A DNA stretch of 64,000 nucleotides from Sphingomonas sp. GTDB taxonomy: Bacteria; Pseudomonadota; Alphaproteobacteria; Sphingomonadales; Sphingomonadaceae. Made by a program: the position numbers and the translations under genes. Where the stretch lies: the NCBI GenBank assembly GCA_013001055.1, contig JABDNH010000007.1:62001-126000 (forward strand), given 5' to 3'. This document shows positions 6,534-39,892 of this stretch, one piece after another. A model generated the notes under the pieces. That model made no database searches. It was not told where the DNA came from and worked only from the letters and a program-made list of their open reading frames with translations. Position 1 is the first letter of the stretch. Each line of letters starts with the position of its first letter.

Positions 6534-7982
6534 ATGCTGACGACTGATCCATTTGACGACGACAAGCTTCGCGAAGAGTGCGGAGTCTTCGGGATCTGGG
6601 GTGCCGAACAGGCGTCCAGCGTCGTCGCACTGGGCCTGCACGCACTCCAGCACCGCGGCCAGGAAGCAGCCGGTATCGTCACGAACGACGGTACCAATTA
6701 TCATGCCCATCGCGGCATGGGGCATGTCGGCGCGAATTTCTCCAAACCCAAGGTGATCCGCAAGCTGGCGGGCAGCGCGGGCATCGGTCACGTGCGCTAC
6801 TCGACCACCGGCGAAACCGCGCAGCGCAACATCCAGCCGCTTTATGCCGACCTCGCCATCGGTGGCTTTGCCGTCGCGCATAACGGCAACATCTCCAATG
6901 CGATGACGCTGCGCAAACGCCTCGTCCAACGCGGCTCGATCTTCCAGTCGACCAGCGACACCGAAGTCATCATCCACCTCGTCGCTACCAGCCGTAAGGA
7001 AGAGCCGGTCGAGCGGTTGATCGACGGCCTCAAGCAGGTCGAGGGCGCCTATTCGCTTTGCCTGCTGATGCCCGACGGTCTCGTCGCATGCCGCGATCCG
7101 ATGGGCATTCGACCGCTGGTCATGGGTCGCTACGGCGAATCGATCGTGTTCGCCTCCGAAAGCGTCGCTTTCGACGTGATCGGCGCAACCTATCTGCGCG
7201 ACGTGGAGCCCGGCGAACTCATCATCGTCAATGACGATGGCCTGCGTAGCTTCAAACCGTTCACACCGGCGCGCCCGCGCCCGTGCATCTTCGAACATGT
7301 CTATTTTTCGCGTCCCGACAGCAAGGTCGACGGCACATCGGTCTACCAGACCCGCAAGGCGATCGGCGAAGAGCTGGCGCGCGAAGCCCCGGTCGAGGCC
7401 GACTATGTCGTCCCCGTCCCCGATAGCGGCGTGCCTGCCGCCATTGGCTATGCCCAGGTCGCGAACATTCCGTTCGAACTCGGCATCATCCGCTCACACT
7501 ATATCGGACGCACATTCATCCAGCCGTCGCAGGACAGCCGCCATTCGGGCGTGAAGATGAAACACAATGCCAACTCGGCGCTGGTCGAAGGCAAGAAGAT
7601 CGTGCTCGTCGACGACAGCGTCGTGCGCGGCACCACTTCGCTTCGCCTCGTCCAGATGATGCGCGATGCCGGCGCCGCCGAAGTGCATATGCGCATCGCC
7701 TCCCCGCCGACACGCTACAGCTGCTTTTACGGCGTCGACACGCCCGAGCGCTCCAAGCTGCTTGCCGCGCAGATGGGGATCGAGGAAATGCGCGACTATG
7801 TGAAGGCCGACAGCCTCGCCTTCATCTCGCTCGATGGGCTCTATCGCGCGCTCGGCGATGAGCGCGATGCAAGCGCCCCGCAGCGTTGCGACGCCTGCTT
7901 CTCGGGCGACTATCCGACTTCCCTTACCGACAAGGAGCAAGATGACGGGCCCAAGCAGTTGAGCCTCGTCGGCAACCACTAA
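6534..7982 (+). CDS. purF: Amidophosphoribosyltransferase
   Basis: PurF makes 5-phosphoribosylamine from PRPP and glutamine, the first committed step of purine synthesis in the cytoplasm. The N-terminal nucleophile of the Ntn glutaminase domain is Cys16 in ECGVFGIWG, so a short propeptide should be removed. HRGQEAAGI and RPLVMGRYG support the glutaminase domain, and the PRPP loop LVDDSVVRGTTS lies in the C-terminal phosphoribosyltransferase domain. I chose ATG 6534, which has GAAGGGA about ten bases upstream; ATG 6495 would add 13 residues. The next gene starts inside its stop codon (TAATG), giving translational coupling. purS and purQ lie 26 kb away. Confidence 0.97.
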   Translation: MLTTDPFDDDKLREECGVFGIWGAEQASSVVALGLHALQHRGQEAAGIVTNDGTNYHAHRGMGHVGANFSKPKVIRKLAGSAGIGHVRYSTTGETAQRNIQPLYADLAIGGFAVAHNGNISNAMTLRKRLVQRGSIFQSTSDTEVIIHLVATSRKEEPVERLIDGLKQVEGAYSLCLLMPDGLVACRDPMGIRPLVMGRYGESIVFASESVAFDVIGATYLRDVEPGELIIVNDDGLRSFKPFTPARPRPCIFEHVYFSRPDSKVDGTSVYQTRKAIGEELAREAPVEADYVVPVPDSGVPAAIGYAQVANIPFELGIIRSHYIGRTFIQPSQDSRHSGVKMKHNANSALVEGKKIVLVDDSVVRGTTSLRLVQMMRDAGAAEVHMRIASPPTRYSCFYGVDTPERSKLLAAQMGIEEMRDYVKADSLAFISLDGLYRALGDERDASAPQRCDACFSGDYPTSLTDKEQDDGPKQLSLVGNH

Positions 7983-35524: not shown

Positions 35525-35601
35525 GCGCCCGTAGCTCAGTTGGATAGAGCACGAGACTTCTAATCTTGAGGCCGCAGGTTCGACTCCTGCCGGGCGCACC
35601 A
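35525..35601 (+). tRNA. tRNA-Arg (anticodon UCU)
   Basis: The 77 bases fold as a standard tRNA. The acceptor arm pairs GCGCCCG (35525-35531) with CGGGCGC (35591-35597), and the discriminator base A is followed by an encoded CCA. The D arm contains AGCTCAGTTGGATAGAGC, the anticodon loop is CTTCTAA with anticodon TCT, and the T arm is GCAGGTTCGACTCCTGC. It decodes AGA arginine codons, which are rare in the genes of this window. tRNA genes are frequent integration sites, but I found no integrase or repeated 3' end nearby. Confidence 0.97.
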
Positions 35602-35979: not shown

Positions 35980-37233
35980 ATGACGGACTTTTCCGAAGCT
36001 TCAATGCGCTTCGACGCGAATACCCAAGCGCCGCAACCACCAAAGCCTAAATGGCGGCCCAGCCGCAAGCGCACTTGCATCAAGCTTAGTGCCTGCGATC
36101 TTGAGCGCACCAAGCGCGCTTTCACCACGAGGCGCGTGCCGCTGGACGCGATGGCTACGCTGATCAACGGCCCGATCCGTCCGCGTACTGGCGATCTCGT
36201 TCTCGCGCGGGTAGAGCGTATCCGTTACCAACGCCGGATCGAATTGACCAATGGCCGCAAGGCGTCGCTCAATGTCGGCGATACCATCATCGTTGCCTAT
36301 GGCGACCGCTATGCGACGGACCAGTTCGAAGCCGAAGTGCCCAACGACCTTGGTCCCACCAACCTGGTAGCCACCGGCGGTGTTGCCGGCGCTGTCCTGA
36401 GCAAGAGTCGCAGCATCAAGCCTGCGACCGAAATCATGCCGCTCGGCCTGGTGGGTGACGCCGAGGGACGCCCACTCAATCTCCATCAATTCCGGGTGAC
36501 CATCGATCGTCCTTATGACGATAATGTTCGCCCGCGCGTCGTCTGCGTTCTGGGAACGTCCATGAACAGCGGAAAGACGACGACCAATCACAGCATCGTG
36601 CTCGGTCTGAGCAGGGCTGGCTATCGCGTCGGCGTGGCCAAGGTCACCGGTACAGGATCGGGCGGCGATTTCTGGCAGATGCTGGACGCAGGCGCGGCCT
36701 TCAACATCGATTTCACCGATGCCGGCTATTCGGCCACCTACAAACTAACAGTGCGCGATCTCGAAGCCATCGCGATGCAACTGGTCGGGTATCTGAGCCA
36801 GCAAAATCTCGATGTGATCCTGCTCGAGGTTGCCGATGGTCTTTATCAGCAACAGAATCTCGAACTGCTGGCCACCGAGACATTTCAATCCATCGTCGAT
36901 GCGGTGTTCTTCGCAGGGGGCGATGCCATGGGTGCCGCGCTGGGTGTCAACCGCGCCCAAATGTCCGGTTATCAGGTGATCGGGTTGTCGGGAAAACTGA
37001 CCGCATCGGAATTGCTCATTCGCGAAGCCGAAGCGATGACCCCGGTGCCCGTTTTCCGCAAGGAGGAACTTAGCAATCCCGAGAGCATCGGAGCGATCCT
37101 TTCCCTCCCGCCGGCGACATCCGATTCCAATCAGCCTTGTGGAGCCACTGAGCGCCATTGCGTAGGCATGTGCGAGCCGCTCCAGGCCGAGGACGAGTCT
37201 TCCTGGGCGCGATTTGCGAGCGGTACGGATTGA
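35980..37233 (+). CDS. P-loop NTPase, BioD/DUF1611-like, of a three-gene envelope operon
   Basis: The 417-residue protein has a basic N-terminus, a beta-rich domain (about residues 65-160; TGDLVLARVERIRYQ, ASLNVGDTIIVAYGDRYATD) and a C-terminal P-loop domain. The Walker A GTSMNSGKTT is at residues 192-201, spaced like the GTDTxVGKT loop of dethiobiotin synthetase. Further motifs are GYRVGVAKVTGTGSGGDF, NLDVILLEVADGLYQ and VFFAGGDAMGAALG. This fits the SIMIBI class and recalls DUF1611 proteins. It lacks a signal peptide. GGAGG lies ten bases before the ATG, and the stop overlaps the ABC exporter start (TGATG). The function is not known to me. Confidence 0.85.
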   Translation: MTDFSEASMRFDANTQAPQPPKPKWRPSRKRTCIKLSACDLERTKRAFTTRRVPLDAMATLINGPIRPRTGDLVLARVERIRYQRRIELTNGRKASLNVGDTIIVAYGDRYATDQFEAEVPNDLGPTNLVATGGVAGAVLSKSRSIKPATEIMPLGLVGDAEGRPLNLHQFRVTIDRPYDDNVRPRVVCVLGTSMNSGKTTTNHSIVLGLSRAGYRVGVAKVTGTGSGGDFWQMLDAGAAFNIDFTDAGYSATYKLTVRDLEAIAMQLVGYLSQQNLDVILLEVADGLYQQQNLELLATETFQSIVDAVFFAGGDAMGAALGVNRAQMSGYQVIGLSGKLTASELLIREAEAMTPVPVFRKEELSNPESIGAILSLPPATSDSNQPCGATERHCVGMCEPLQAEDESSWARFASGTD

Positions 37234-38954
37234 TGCAGGCGCGCCGCAAAATCGTCTATCGCAAGATGTTCCGAAAGGCCGACATCGCGACACTGACAGC
37301 GATCGGCATCGGCTATGCGACGACAGTGGTCCTGATGCTGGTGCTGCTACGCGAATTCATCCTGGCGCTGACGGGCGATGCCGGCTCGCAGCTGGAACCG
37401 ATGACGATTGCCGCGTTGCTTGGTGTGACGGCGATTGCGCATGCCGCGTTACGCATGCTGGAATTCGCCGTGCCCGAGCATATCGGATTTCGCATCGTCA
37501 AAAATATGCGCCACCATATCTACCAGCACATGGCGCAGATGATGCCCCACCAGATCCGCCACCGTTCGCGCGGTAGCCTGATCTTGCGGCTGACGGGCGA
37601 TCTGACGATGCTGAGGACCTGGCTCAGCCGCGGTATCGCGCGCGGGCTGATTGCCGGACTGTCGCTGGTAGCGACGCTGGCCGTGCTTGCACGCTTTAGC
37701 TGGCCCATCGCCTTATCGATCGTCTTTGCGCTGATAGTGGGCGCCATTGCGTCAGCCTGGGCCGGACGACGACTGGCCAAATATACCACGCGCGTGCGGC
37801 GGCGCCGTTCGACGCTGACCAGCAATATCGACGAACAGGTCCATGCCCTGGCCTCGGTCCAGCTATTCAACCGTCTCGACGGCGAGCGCAATCGGCTTGA
37901 ACGCCAGAACGAGAGCCTGACGAGCGCCCTGATGCAGGAAGCCTGGTGGCGTGCCGCGCTTCGCGGCCTGTCGGCAGCAACGAGCTGGTCGGCGCTGGTG
38001 GTGGCGCTCATGACGGGCTTCATCTTGTTACGCCACGGGCTTACTGATCTTGGTACGATCGTGGCGGCGCTCATCGCGACCCGGCTCATGCAGGGCTATG
38101 TGACAACTTTATCGTTAAGCCACGACTATTGGCGCCGTGCGGAAATCTCGCGCACCAAGTTGGAAGACTTCTTCAACAGCCGTTCGCGCCGAACGGTCGG
38201 CGATGGCGGCGACAAGCTGGTCCATAATCGTGCCCGCATCATATTCGAAAACGTGTGCGTCGATGGTGCGCTGGACGGGTTTACTGCAACGGTCGCGGCG
38301 GGAAGGCATGTCGTCATCATCGGCCCTGACTCGAGCAGTCGCCAGGCAGTGCTCGACTGTGTGACCAAGATGATCGAAGTTGATAGCGGCAAGGTCACGA
38401 TCGGCCAACAGGACCTGGCCGACTGCAGCGCCGAAAGCATCTGGCGCAAGGTCGGCGTCATCAGCCCCGACTTGCCGCTGATGCGCGGGACATTGCGGCG
38501 CAACCTTAGCTATCGTGATCGCAAGGTCGACGACGAGGAATTGCTGCGTCTGCTTGGCGAGGTGGGGCTCCTCGATTTCGTCGACAACCTGCCTGACGGG
38601 CTTGATCACTGGTTGACCGAAGGCGGCTCCAACCTGCCTCCCGACATCCGCCAGCTGGTCCGGGTGGTGCGCGGCATGGCCGGGAACCCGCCGATACTCC
38701 TGGTCGAACGGCTCGGAACCGCGCTCGATGAAGGCCAGAAAGCGGCAGTACAGAATGCACTGGGCAATTTCGCGGCGACGATCATCTCTGTCAGCGACGA
38801 TCCTTCCGACATCTGCTGGGCGGACGAAGTCTGGACCATTGTCGATGGCCAGCTTCTGCGCGCCGAAAGCAAGGACGAACATGACCTCCGGGTCCGGCTC
38901 CCCCGGATCGCTCGGGCCGGCGAGGTCGAATGGATTTATGGGACGGGACGGTGA
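37233..38954 (+). CDS. ABC exporter-type protein with degenerate (probably inactive) ATPase domain
   Basis: The 573-residue protein has an ABC exporter membrane domain (about residues 1-310, six hydrophobic segments) fused to a nucleotide-binding domain in which every motif is altered. The Walker A position reads GPDSSSRQA (364-372), without the GK(S/T). The Q-loop reads GVISPDL, the signature LSGGQ is LPPDI, Walker B ends LLVER where LLLDE is expected, and the switch histidine is replaced in SVSDDPSD. The domain's overall length and the TALD after Walker B are kept, so it is a conserved pseudo-ATPase rather than random decay. It is coupled by TGATG to both neighbours, and the upstream one has an intact P-loop. 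Confidence 0.88.
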   Translation: MQARRKIVYRKMFRKADIATLTAIGIGYATTVVLMLVLLREFILALTGDAGSQLEPMTIAALLGVTAIAHAALRMLEFAVPEHIGFRIVKNMRHHIYQHMAQMMPHQIRHRSRGSLILRLTGDLTMLRTWLSRGIARGLIAGLSLVATLAVLARFSWPIALSIVFALIVGAIASAWAGRRLAKYTTRVRRRRSTLTSNIDEQVHALASVQLFNRLDGERNRLERQNESLTSALMQEAWWRAALRGLSAATSWSALVVALMTGFILLRHGLTDLGTIVAALIATRLMQGYVTTLSLSHDYWRRAEISRTKLEDFFNSRSRRTVGDGGDKLVHNRARIIFENVCVDGALDGFTATVAAGRHVVIIGPDSSSRQAVLDCVTKMIEVDSGKVTIGQQDLADCSAESIWRKVGVISPDLPLMRGTLRRNLSYRDRKVDDEELLRLLGEVGLLDFVDNLPDGLDHWLTEGGSNLPPDIRQLVRVVRGMAGNPPILLVERLGTALDEGQKAAVQNALGNFAATIISVSDDPSDICWADEVWTIVDGQLLRAESKDEHDLRVRLPRIARAGEVEWIYGTGR

Positions 38955-39892
38955 TGGGACAAACCGAATCTGTGATGGAGAAACTCGTGGTTAAAAAGTT
39001 CATCGCCCGGGCGGGGGCGATCGCGGTATGCGCCGCTCTGCTGCCCGGTATCGCGCACGCTCGTGACCGCGAGCGTATCACCGTAGACGTGTTCGCCTTG
39101 CTCAACGAGGCAAGCGGCGAAACCTCCGACGGCTTTGAGGATCAGGATGCCTCGGGCTTTATCATCGGCGGCGACACCGAATTTGAAATTCGTCGTGACG
39201 ATCATCGCTTCCGGCTCGGCGCGGGATCAACCTATTATGCCTATTCAGAAGAAGATCGCGACGATCGGCACAACAATGCCGTGTGGCTGACCTACTCGAC
39301 CCCATTGTCGGGTCGTCTGTCCGTATGGGTCCAGGGCAAGCACGACACCAACATGAGCGCTCTTGAAGCGCGCGAGACACGCCAGGACCGGATCCGTTCG
39401 CAACTTATCTGGCAGGAAGGCGATAACCGCATTCGTGCGCGTGCGGGTTATCGCTGGCGCGAATATATCAGCGACGATACCGACGGCGATGGCCTCGAAT
39501 TGGGCGCCGATTATCGTCGCCGCTTCGATAACGGCATGTCGAGCTACACCTATGTCCGATGGGATGAAATCGAGGCCGATGTGCTGCGCCGCTCTTACGA
39601 GCGCTGGACCTTGGGCACCGATCTCACGGTCCCTGTCAGCGATCGGATCGATATCATCCCCTCGCTGCGCTACCGGACATGGAGCTACCCCAGCCGGCTG
39701 GTCGATGGCCTTGAACTTCGCGAAGACAGCAGTCTTAACCCGCGGATTTCCGTCGTCTACGATCTGGGGGACGATTGGGAAGTCCTGGGACGCGCTGGCG
39801 TGATCTGGCGGCGCTCCAACGACGATCGGTTCGACGAGACCATTACGCGACTCTCGATCGGCGTTTCCAAAAGGCTTCGCTGGGATCTTTAG
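38954..39892 (+). CDS. Putative outer-membrane beta-barrel protein
   Basis: The ATG at 38954 sits in the ABC gene stop (TGATG) and gives 312 residues. The N-terminus carries a signal peptide (KKFIARAGAIAVCAALLPG, then IAHAR). The rest is a series of alternating amphipathic strands separated by acidic turns, for example FRLGAGSTYYAYSEED, NNAVWLTYSTPLSGRLSVWVQ, RARAGYRWREYISDDTDGD and WEVLGRAGVIWRRSNDDR. It ends in a C-terminal aromatic/leucine strand (GVSKRLRWDL), as expected of a barrel. An upstream ATG at 38930 and a downstream one at 38975 are alternatives. It may be the outer-membrane part of an export or assembly system with the two preceding genes. Confidence 0.8.
   Translation: MGQTESVMEKLVVKKFIARAGAIAVCAALLPGIAHARDRERITVDVFALLNEASGETSDGFEDQDASGFIIGGDTEFEIRRDDHRFRLGAGSTYYAYSEEDRDDRHNNAVWLTYSTPLSGRLSVWVQGKHDTNMSALEARETRQDRIRSQLIWQEGDNRIRARAGYRWREYISDDTDGDGLELGADYRRRFDNGMSSYTYVRWDEIEADVLRRSYERWTLGTDLTVPVSDRIDIIPSLRYRTWSYPSRLVDGLELREDSSLNPRISVVYDLGDDWEVLGRAGVIWRRSNDDRFDETITRLSIGVSKRLRWDL

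Follow-up and report, generated by a model that had tools for sequence, protein, structure and literature searches.

A conserved P-loop/ABC exporter gene pair with a degenerate ATPase domain in Sphingomonas sp.: possible form of an envelope module for acidic amide-linked products

What can an ABC exporter be good for when every motif of its ATPase domain has changed and its membrane domain has been kept? This question is raised by a three-gene operon in a stretch of 64,000 nucleotides from Sphingomonas sp. (GenBank assembly GCA_013001055.1, contig JABDNH010000007.1, positions 62,001 to 126,000 of the forward strand), which is referred to as the window. The operon encodes a P-loop protein (P0001, gene 1), an ABC exporter with a degenerate nucleotide-binding domain (NBD) (P0002, gene 2), and a putative outer-membrane barrel (P0003, gene 3). 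Tentatively, and with less than even confidence, we regard it as the version, in Sphingomicrobium, of an envelope module that is widespread and so far undescribed and whose role would be to make and transport an acidic amide-linked product resembling poly- or oligo-aspartate or -glutamate. The operon and its motifs are located as follows.

35980..37233, + strand: gene 1, 417 aa, from the open reading frame (ORF) calls
36553..36579, + strand: intact Walker A of gene 1, GTSMNSGKT, from the sequence
37233..38954, + strand: gene 2, 573 aa from the ATG at 37233
38322..38348, + strand: degenerate Walker A of gene 2, GPDSSSRQA, by motif comparison
38466..38468, + strand: Pro codon at the Q-loop Gln position of gene 2, common to most of the family
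38634..38648, + strand: degenerate signature of gene 2, LPPDI, by motif comparison
38697..38711, + strand: degenerate Walker B of gene 2, LLVER, by motif comparison
38796..38798, + strand: Asp codon at the switch-His position of gene 2, by motif comparison
38954..39892, + strand: gene 3, 312 aa, predicted outer-membrane beta-barrel

The ORFs and both junction sequences, TGATG at 37231-37235 and at 38952-38956, bear out the original prediction of a three-gene operon. For gene 2 the ATG at 37233 is used as the start; the mechanical ORF list starts it earlier, with a TTG inside gene 1. Gene 2 matches the Pfam family ABC_membrane (PF00664) with E 5e-22, as expected for the six-helix membrane domain of an ABC exporter, although a crude hydropathy scan gives five segments above threshold and not six. 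ABC_tran is matched with 25.5 bits at a cut-off of 25. All five motifs of a functional ABC exporter are altered: besides the changed Walker A, Walker B and signature, the Q-loop is replaced by SPDLPLMRGT and the switch His by Asp. The prediction of a normal membrane domain joined to an NBD with five altered motifs is thus correct.

In Sphingomicrobium, purifying selection acts on this degenerate NBD almost as strongly as on its neighbours. The window genome (G000; 2.08 Mb, 25 contigs) is presumably congeneric with Sphingomicrobium lutaoense, hence the genus name used here. Compared with G077, the nearest operon-bearing genome, the ratio of nonsynonymous to synonymous substitution rates (dN/dS; pairwise Nei-Gojobori, own script) is 0.080 for the NBD versus 0.056 for the transmembrane domain (TMD), 0.069 for the P-loop gene, and 0.051 for the barrel. 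The parts reach 0.22-0.30 when the window is compared with G165 and G166 (barrel: G165 only). Since the degenerate motifs are common to all four operon-bearing genomes found in the genus (G000, G077, G165, G166), the change in the NBD would be old and stable. Together with the dN/dS of the NBD, this supports the predicted maintenance of gene 2 as a pseudo-ATPase.

The usual neighbour of the P-loop gene is an exporter gene of this type. Some 85,000 species genomes were scanned and gave at least 480 relatives of the P-loop protein among at least 589 candidates, of which the best 80 were kept; as they were selected for their match to an alignment seeded with sphingomonads, they are not a random sample. 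With 14 loci from a further genome search, 94 loci were examined, or 91 after removal of three duplicates. In 83 of the 91 loci (86 of 94 with duplicates), the next ORF downstream, on the same strand, is of the ABC-exporter type. The partner is found in six phyla, namely Pseudomonadota, Actinomycetota, Cyanobacteriota, Acidobacteriota, Thermodesulfobacteriota, and Thermomicrobiota, the last three known from metagenome-assembled genomes. In contrast, the roughly 1.5 kb on each side of 20 control loci of the P-loop family DUF1611 hold no ABC, hydrolase, porin or CapA ORF. Linkage of the P-loop and ABC genes is therefore strong, but the barrel gene shares in it only in part of the Sphingomonadales loci. 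Occurrence is patchy: P0001 has matches in 6 of 149 genomes of the family and 15 of 296 genomes of the order, distant paralogues such as that of G040 counted; in a phylum draw of 398 genomes, 5 have a match at E <= 1e-30, those of G040 and G631 being distant paralogues. A description of this gene set was not found in the open-licence PMC literature, which does not show its absence from print.

Is the loss of the ATPase a peculiarity of the window? After exclusion of five ABC partners cut by contig ends (L070, L076, L077, L083, L118), 82 ABC proteins including that of the window were classified, with GK[ST] in Walker A and DE in Walker B as canonical and fewer than 60 residues left as absent. 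The NBD is canonical in 57, partial in one (L025), dead in 15 (14 without a duplicate), and absent in nine (seven without duplicates); an NBD-like domain is kept in 14 of the 21 non-duplicate proteins that have lost a functional NBD, the window included. In five NBD-less loci with inspected 3' junctions (L096, L112, L124, L125, L130), the gene ends at or a few bases from the start of a hydrolase gene, leaving no room for an NBD remnant. The switch position of the 57 canonical proteins is occupied by H in 49, Q in seven, and R in one. The Q-loop Gln is missing in 49 of these 57 proteins. An altered Q-loop is thus the rule in this family, and these exporters may have coupled in an unusual way even before the loss of the ATPase. 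The predicted alteration of the Q-loop in gene 2 is thus real, but it is not part of the decay. The Gln is kept in L095, L101, L111, L113, L114, L115, L123, and L127, which form a separate ABC group resembling type I secretion systems (T1SS); L113, scanned as one of the eight, matches PrtD models best, below their cut-off. These loci consist of the P-loop gene, the T1SS-like ABC gene, and then, by our reading of the sequences, an HlyD-type adaptor. Such an adaptor was seen only in this Paracoccus-type group, and none stands beside gene 2 in the window operon, as it would in a type I secretion system.

Two quick, unrooted protein trees place the losses. On the P-loop tree (89 rows, 78 with a motif state) at least six changes between intact and lost are needed, and a single clade of the 21 lost rows is rejected (approximately unbiased test, p-AU 1e-99). 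On the TMD tree (71 rows, the eight T1SS-type rows excluded, two long branches) three changes are needed, and a single lost clade is likewise rejected (p-AU 5e-7). The changes are read as losses because a regain of all motifs is unlikely. On both trees Sphingomicrobium (four rows) and Phycicoccus (L089) stand apart from each other, each surrounded by canonical proteins. At least two losses of the ABC ATPase thus took place within well-supported canonical clades, with the membrane domain and the P-loop gene retained. The remaining 16 lost rows fall outside the canonical ones on the TMD tree, where a single origin and a rooting effect are possible, and are scattered among the canonical rows on the P-loop tree. 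On the latter, the P-loop protein of the window groups with those of Tsuneonella (canonical) and G279 (partial) beside Actinomycetota, which suggests transfer between phyla.

Two domains make up the P-loop protein, one N-terminal (residues 41-180, approximately) and one C-terminal, the latter a P-loop domain of SIMIBI type. Its P-loop is intact, as predicted: GTSMNSGKT is present, and GK[ST] with the Walker lysine is kept in 88 of 89 aligned relatives, an alignment from which the three duplicates and L033, L034, and L035 are excluded. The label BioD-like, also given by the original prediction, is weakly supported by sequence. All Pfam scores are below their cut-offs, namely MobB (2.8e-4, 21.2 of 26.6 bits), DUF1611 (E 4.8e-4, 20 bits against 25), and AAA_26 (0.11, 12.8 of 27 bits), and NCBIfam gives no DgcN match at E <= 0.01. 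Membership in DUF1611/DgcN, MobB or BioD was therefore rejected, and gene 1 is at most a remote relative of DUF1611/DgcN and MobB. With the former it shares the P-loop fold class and, by eye, weak motifs (GT..GK, TG.G, DF..G), whereas the N-terminal part differs by eye; for this domain, no credible solved relative was found (best E 0.36). Of two true DUF1611 proteins that were scanned, one lies above the NCBIfam cut-off for N-acetyltransferase DgcN and the other just under it.

A distant two-domain paralogue of P0001 is encoded between argR and argC-argB in G040 (L034:7119-8234, - strand) and can be aligned across both domains (29% identity, 248 columns). ArgJ was not found in G040, other N-acetylglutamate synthases not having been searched for, and the paralogue is a candidate non-orthologous N-acetylglutamate synthase. 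Another distant paralogue (L189:7133-8158, - strand, G631) adjoins a carboxypeptidase-G2-like M20 peptidase; G631 has ArgJ. The remote DgcN similarity and the argR-argC-argB paralogue would tie the P-loop family to acidic amino acids.

Further genes recur around the pair. Downstream of the P-loop gene on the same strand, a hydrolase is encoded in 56 of the 91 loci, a Porin_O_P-type protein in 22, and a PGA_cap-type (CapA-family) protein in 11; these counts were made with profiles, and the Pfam identity was checked on examples only. The hydrolase family matches poly(aspartic acid) hydrolase-1 (PahZ1) with E 3e-52 to 9o7u and E 2e-46 to 6ve6. Its invariant S131, D201, and H256 (numbering of row 1 of alignment A4) are, by our reading, the putative catalytic Ser-Asp-His. 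Tsuneonella (L057) has a protein more closely related to PahZ1 (232 bits to 6ve6); its gene lies just 5' of those for barrel, P-loop protein, ABC protein, and CapA and is read from the other strand. In L025 (G279) the P-loop, ABC, hydrolase, gene-3-like barrel, and CapA genes stand in one row. In L068, L082, and L133, P-loop and hydrolase genes occur without a detected ABC gene. Two single ORFs match both the ABC and the hydrolase profile (L085:9146-11698, + strand, 850 aa; L132:7706-10474, + strand, 922 aa).

Gene 3 itself matches TonB_dep_Rec_b-barrel in Pfam with 32 bits against 27, over part of the model only; its other matches are below cut-off, and a profile search for solved relatives gave none at E <= 1. 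Its relatives lie near the same P-loop gene in the Sphingomonadales loci mentioned above. In L033 (7240-8399, - strand, genome G033), the P-loop gene is split into two frames near an ORF read as IS-like, and a gene-3-like barrel and a hydrolase are encoded nearby.

The window genome encodes the hydrolase at G000:C20:67247 (E 8e-48 to 6ve6) and a CapA-like protein at G000:C18:5604, that is, away from the operon. Among 31 genomes of the genus, the ABC gene of the operon is found at E <= 1e-60 in three (G000, G165, G166). A match to the hydrolase profile at E <= 1e-3 is found in 18 of the 31, yet only these three have a strong one, of 1.7e-50 or better; the next-best match, in another genome, has 8e-12. 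A strong match to the CapA of G279 (47-48% identity) is present in G000 and G165, i.e. two of three operon genomes, and in 0 of the 28 others; two other genomes of the genus have weak CapA matches (best E 2e-16). G077 is not among these 31 genomes; the operon and the hydrolase are present in it, together with a gene of the PGA_cap type.

How could these proteins act together? The P-loop protein would bind ATP or GTP and activate or join (or acylate) an acidic amino acid. The conduit through the inner membrane would be the ABC-derived membrane domain, and the barrel would pass the product across the outer membrane, while the PahZ1-like hydrolase would cut the product and the CapA-like protein handle or anchor it. 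Synthesis by the P-loop enzyme is supposed to drive translocation itself. The ABC ATPase would then be dispensable, and could be inactivated or deleted in several lineages with the membrane domain retained; P-loop chemistry combined with a membrane conduit would explain both a dispensable ATPase and an indispensable P-loop gene. The PahZ1-like hydrolase, CapA, and Porin_O_P neighbours point to acidic amino-acid polymers, and a trans-envelope function fits. The substrate, direction, catalysis, coupling, and energy source of the module are what we infer from these data. The most specific version is rather doubtful: a new class of envelope polymer machine whose ABC membrane domain is driven not by an ATPase of its own but by a SIMIBI-type P-loop synthetase, a separate protein that would link units of an acidic amino acid into a chain and force it outwards.

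PgsBCA/CapBCA systems, which include a degrading hydrolase, are among the closest parallels. Poly-gamma-glutamate (PGA) synthetase (PgsB, PgsC, PgsA/CapA) is a membrane-associated complex with an amide-ligase component (PMC3815933), and the module resembles it in combining a nucleotide-binding enzyme, a membrane partner, and a CapA-family protein under the logic of an acidic polyamide. As the words 'transport' and 'channel' are absent from the main text of that paper, the coupling of synthesis to export is our own supposition. The module differs in its membrane partner, an ABC-exporter domain instead of PgsC, and in its PahZ1-type hydrolase and outer-membrane barrel. The three operon proteins have no match to CapB/PgsB ligases or CapC/PgsC in Pfam and NCBIfam, which excludes the operon, and with it gene 1, from PgsBCA; a CapA-family protein is encoded elsewhere in the genome and in loci of relatives. 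PahZ1, of which the module hydrolase is a clear homologue, appears in PMC4456602 as a degrader of synthetic polyaspartate and in no transporter context.

Several observations weigh against this proposal. The window operon itself has neither hydrolase nor CapA. Within 1.5 kb of the P-loop gene, an ABC gene is present in 83 of 91 loci, but hydrolase in 22, porin in two, and CapA in one, so the DUF1611 control is telling for the ABC gene only. Linkage was counted from the side of the P-loop gene, the frequency of the ABC subfamily without it being outside that scope. Eight of the 94 loci have no detected ABC partner (the frameshifted L033, the distant paralogues L034 and L035, and five others), and the eight T1SS-like loci pair the P-loop gene with another ABC type instead. 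The two trees differ in their number of changes, and unrooted trees cannot separate gain from loss. G166 has the operon without a PGA_cap match, and the Fisher P values for co-occurrence (hydrolase 2.2e-4, CapA 6.5e-3) ignore kinship and depend on thresholds set after the scores were seen. The match of P0001 to the DgcN profile is weak (hhalign probability 3.5%, E 0.012). An ester polymer is possible as well, since LpqC, which is named a putative poly(3-hydroxybutyrate) depolymerase, is another match of the hydrolase family, and no natural substrate of PahZ1 is known.

The same set of genes could serve in catabolism, with the module taking up and degrading foreign polyaspartate- or polyglutamate-like material. 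The hydrolase would cut outside, the porin or barrel admit the fragments, the ABC-derived domain import them, and the DgcN-like P-loop enzyme modify (D-)amino acids. The use of PahZ1 on synthetic polyaspartate (PMC4456602), the description of dgcN as a key gene in racemizing D-type acidic amino acids (PMC12363236), and the Porin_O_P-type ORFs in 22 of 91 loci agree with this, but the membrane domain belongs to an exporter fold family and the PGA_cap partner is of capsule type by its family name. The module also occurs in Actinomycetota, to which an outer-membrane uptake route does not apply. On the whole, we consider a catabolic function unlikely. ABC-driven transport might also persist if the pseudo-ATPase half paired with an active ABC half encoded elsewhere. 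Heterodimers with a degenerate site are well known, and two further ABC-exporter-like places in the genome match P0002; however, the operon has no second half, every motif is altered including H-loop and signature, and the NBD is wholly gone in seven non-duplicate rows, which makes such a pairing quite improbable.

NBD-less members of the P-loop-linked ABC family are also in accordance with a conversion of the membrane domain into a proton-driven secondary transporter, the P-loop protein then being an ordinary cytosolic enzyme without an energetic role. The precedent is SbmA, a proton-driven relative of ABC transporter membrane domains; SbmA-like peptide transporters (SLiPT) have an ABC-exporter-type membrane domain without the ABC ATPase (PMC13316013). 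The window differs from these in its pseudo-NBD and adjacent P-loop gene, and P0002 has no SbmA_BacA match in Pfam at E <= 1. Moreover, an NBD-like domain is retained in 14 of 21 non-duplicate lost-NBD proteins and is under selection in Sphingomicrobium, so we find this conversion fairly improbable. The operon might finally be a remnant losing its function in the lineage of the window, as the original prediction would have concluded from relatives with canonical motifs. Such relatives were indeed found (57 of 82), and the distribution of the operon is uneven, with three of 31 genomes of the genus. Yet such decay is hardly credible and was rejected: the P-loop/ABC linkage is conserved, dN/dS is 0.05-0.08 for all parts between window and G077, frames and TGATG junctions are open and intact in the window, and repeated loss is indicated by the rejection of a forced single clade on both trees.

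If the proposed module for acidic amide-linked products is right, a polymer system of six phyla has so far gone unnamed, and PahZ1-type hydrolases obtain a natural context. ABC exporter domains that lose their motor more than once would be natural experiments on working without ABC ATP hydrolysis. Were the synthetase-driven machine true as well, these hydrolases would gain a natural substrate, and evolution would repeatedly swap the motor of a transporter. Plasmid genes with scattered annotations would become one functional unit; in eight plasmid records of the gene set, the genes are labelled, where at all, 'DUF1611 domain-containing protein', 'dethiobiotin synthase', 'hypothetical protein' or 'transposase'.

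The GC content is 0.57-0.64 over 32-43 kb and shows no step at the operon, so horizontal transfer was rejected on base composition. Promoter and terminator scans gave counts not above those of shuffles. A defence system was likewise rejected, as PADLOC gave nothing for P0001 to P0003 at E <= 1e-5. Four PADLOC models do match a canonical ABC relative, that of L092; we read these as generic ATPase matches. An RNA element scan at gathering thresholds gave nothing besides a tRNA gene, which takes no part in the proposed mechanism.

35525..35601, + strand: tRNA-Arg (tct), 5' of the operon

No tRNA-Arg was found upstream of the operon in L022, L023, L025, and L057. In L056 (S. lutaoense), a tRNA-Arg with a different anticodon (ccg versus tct in the window) lies upstream of the operon at 7578-7654, and the tRNA-Arg is possibly an insertion site or landmark.

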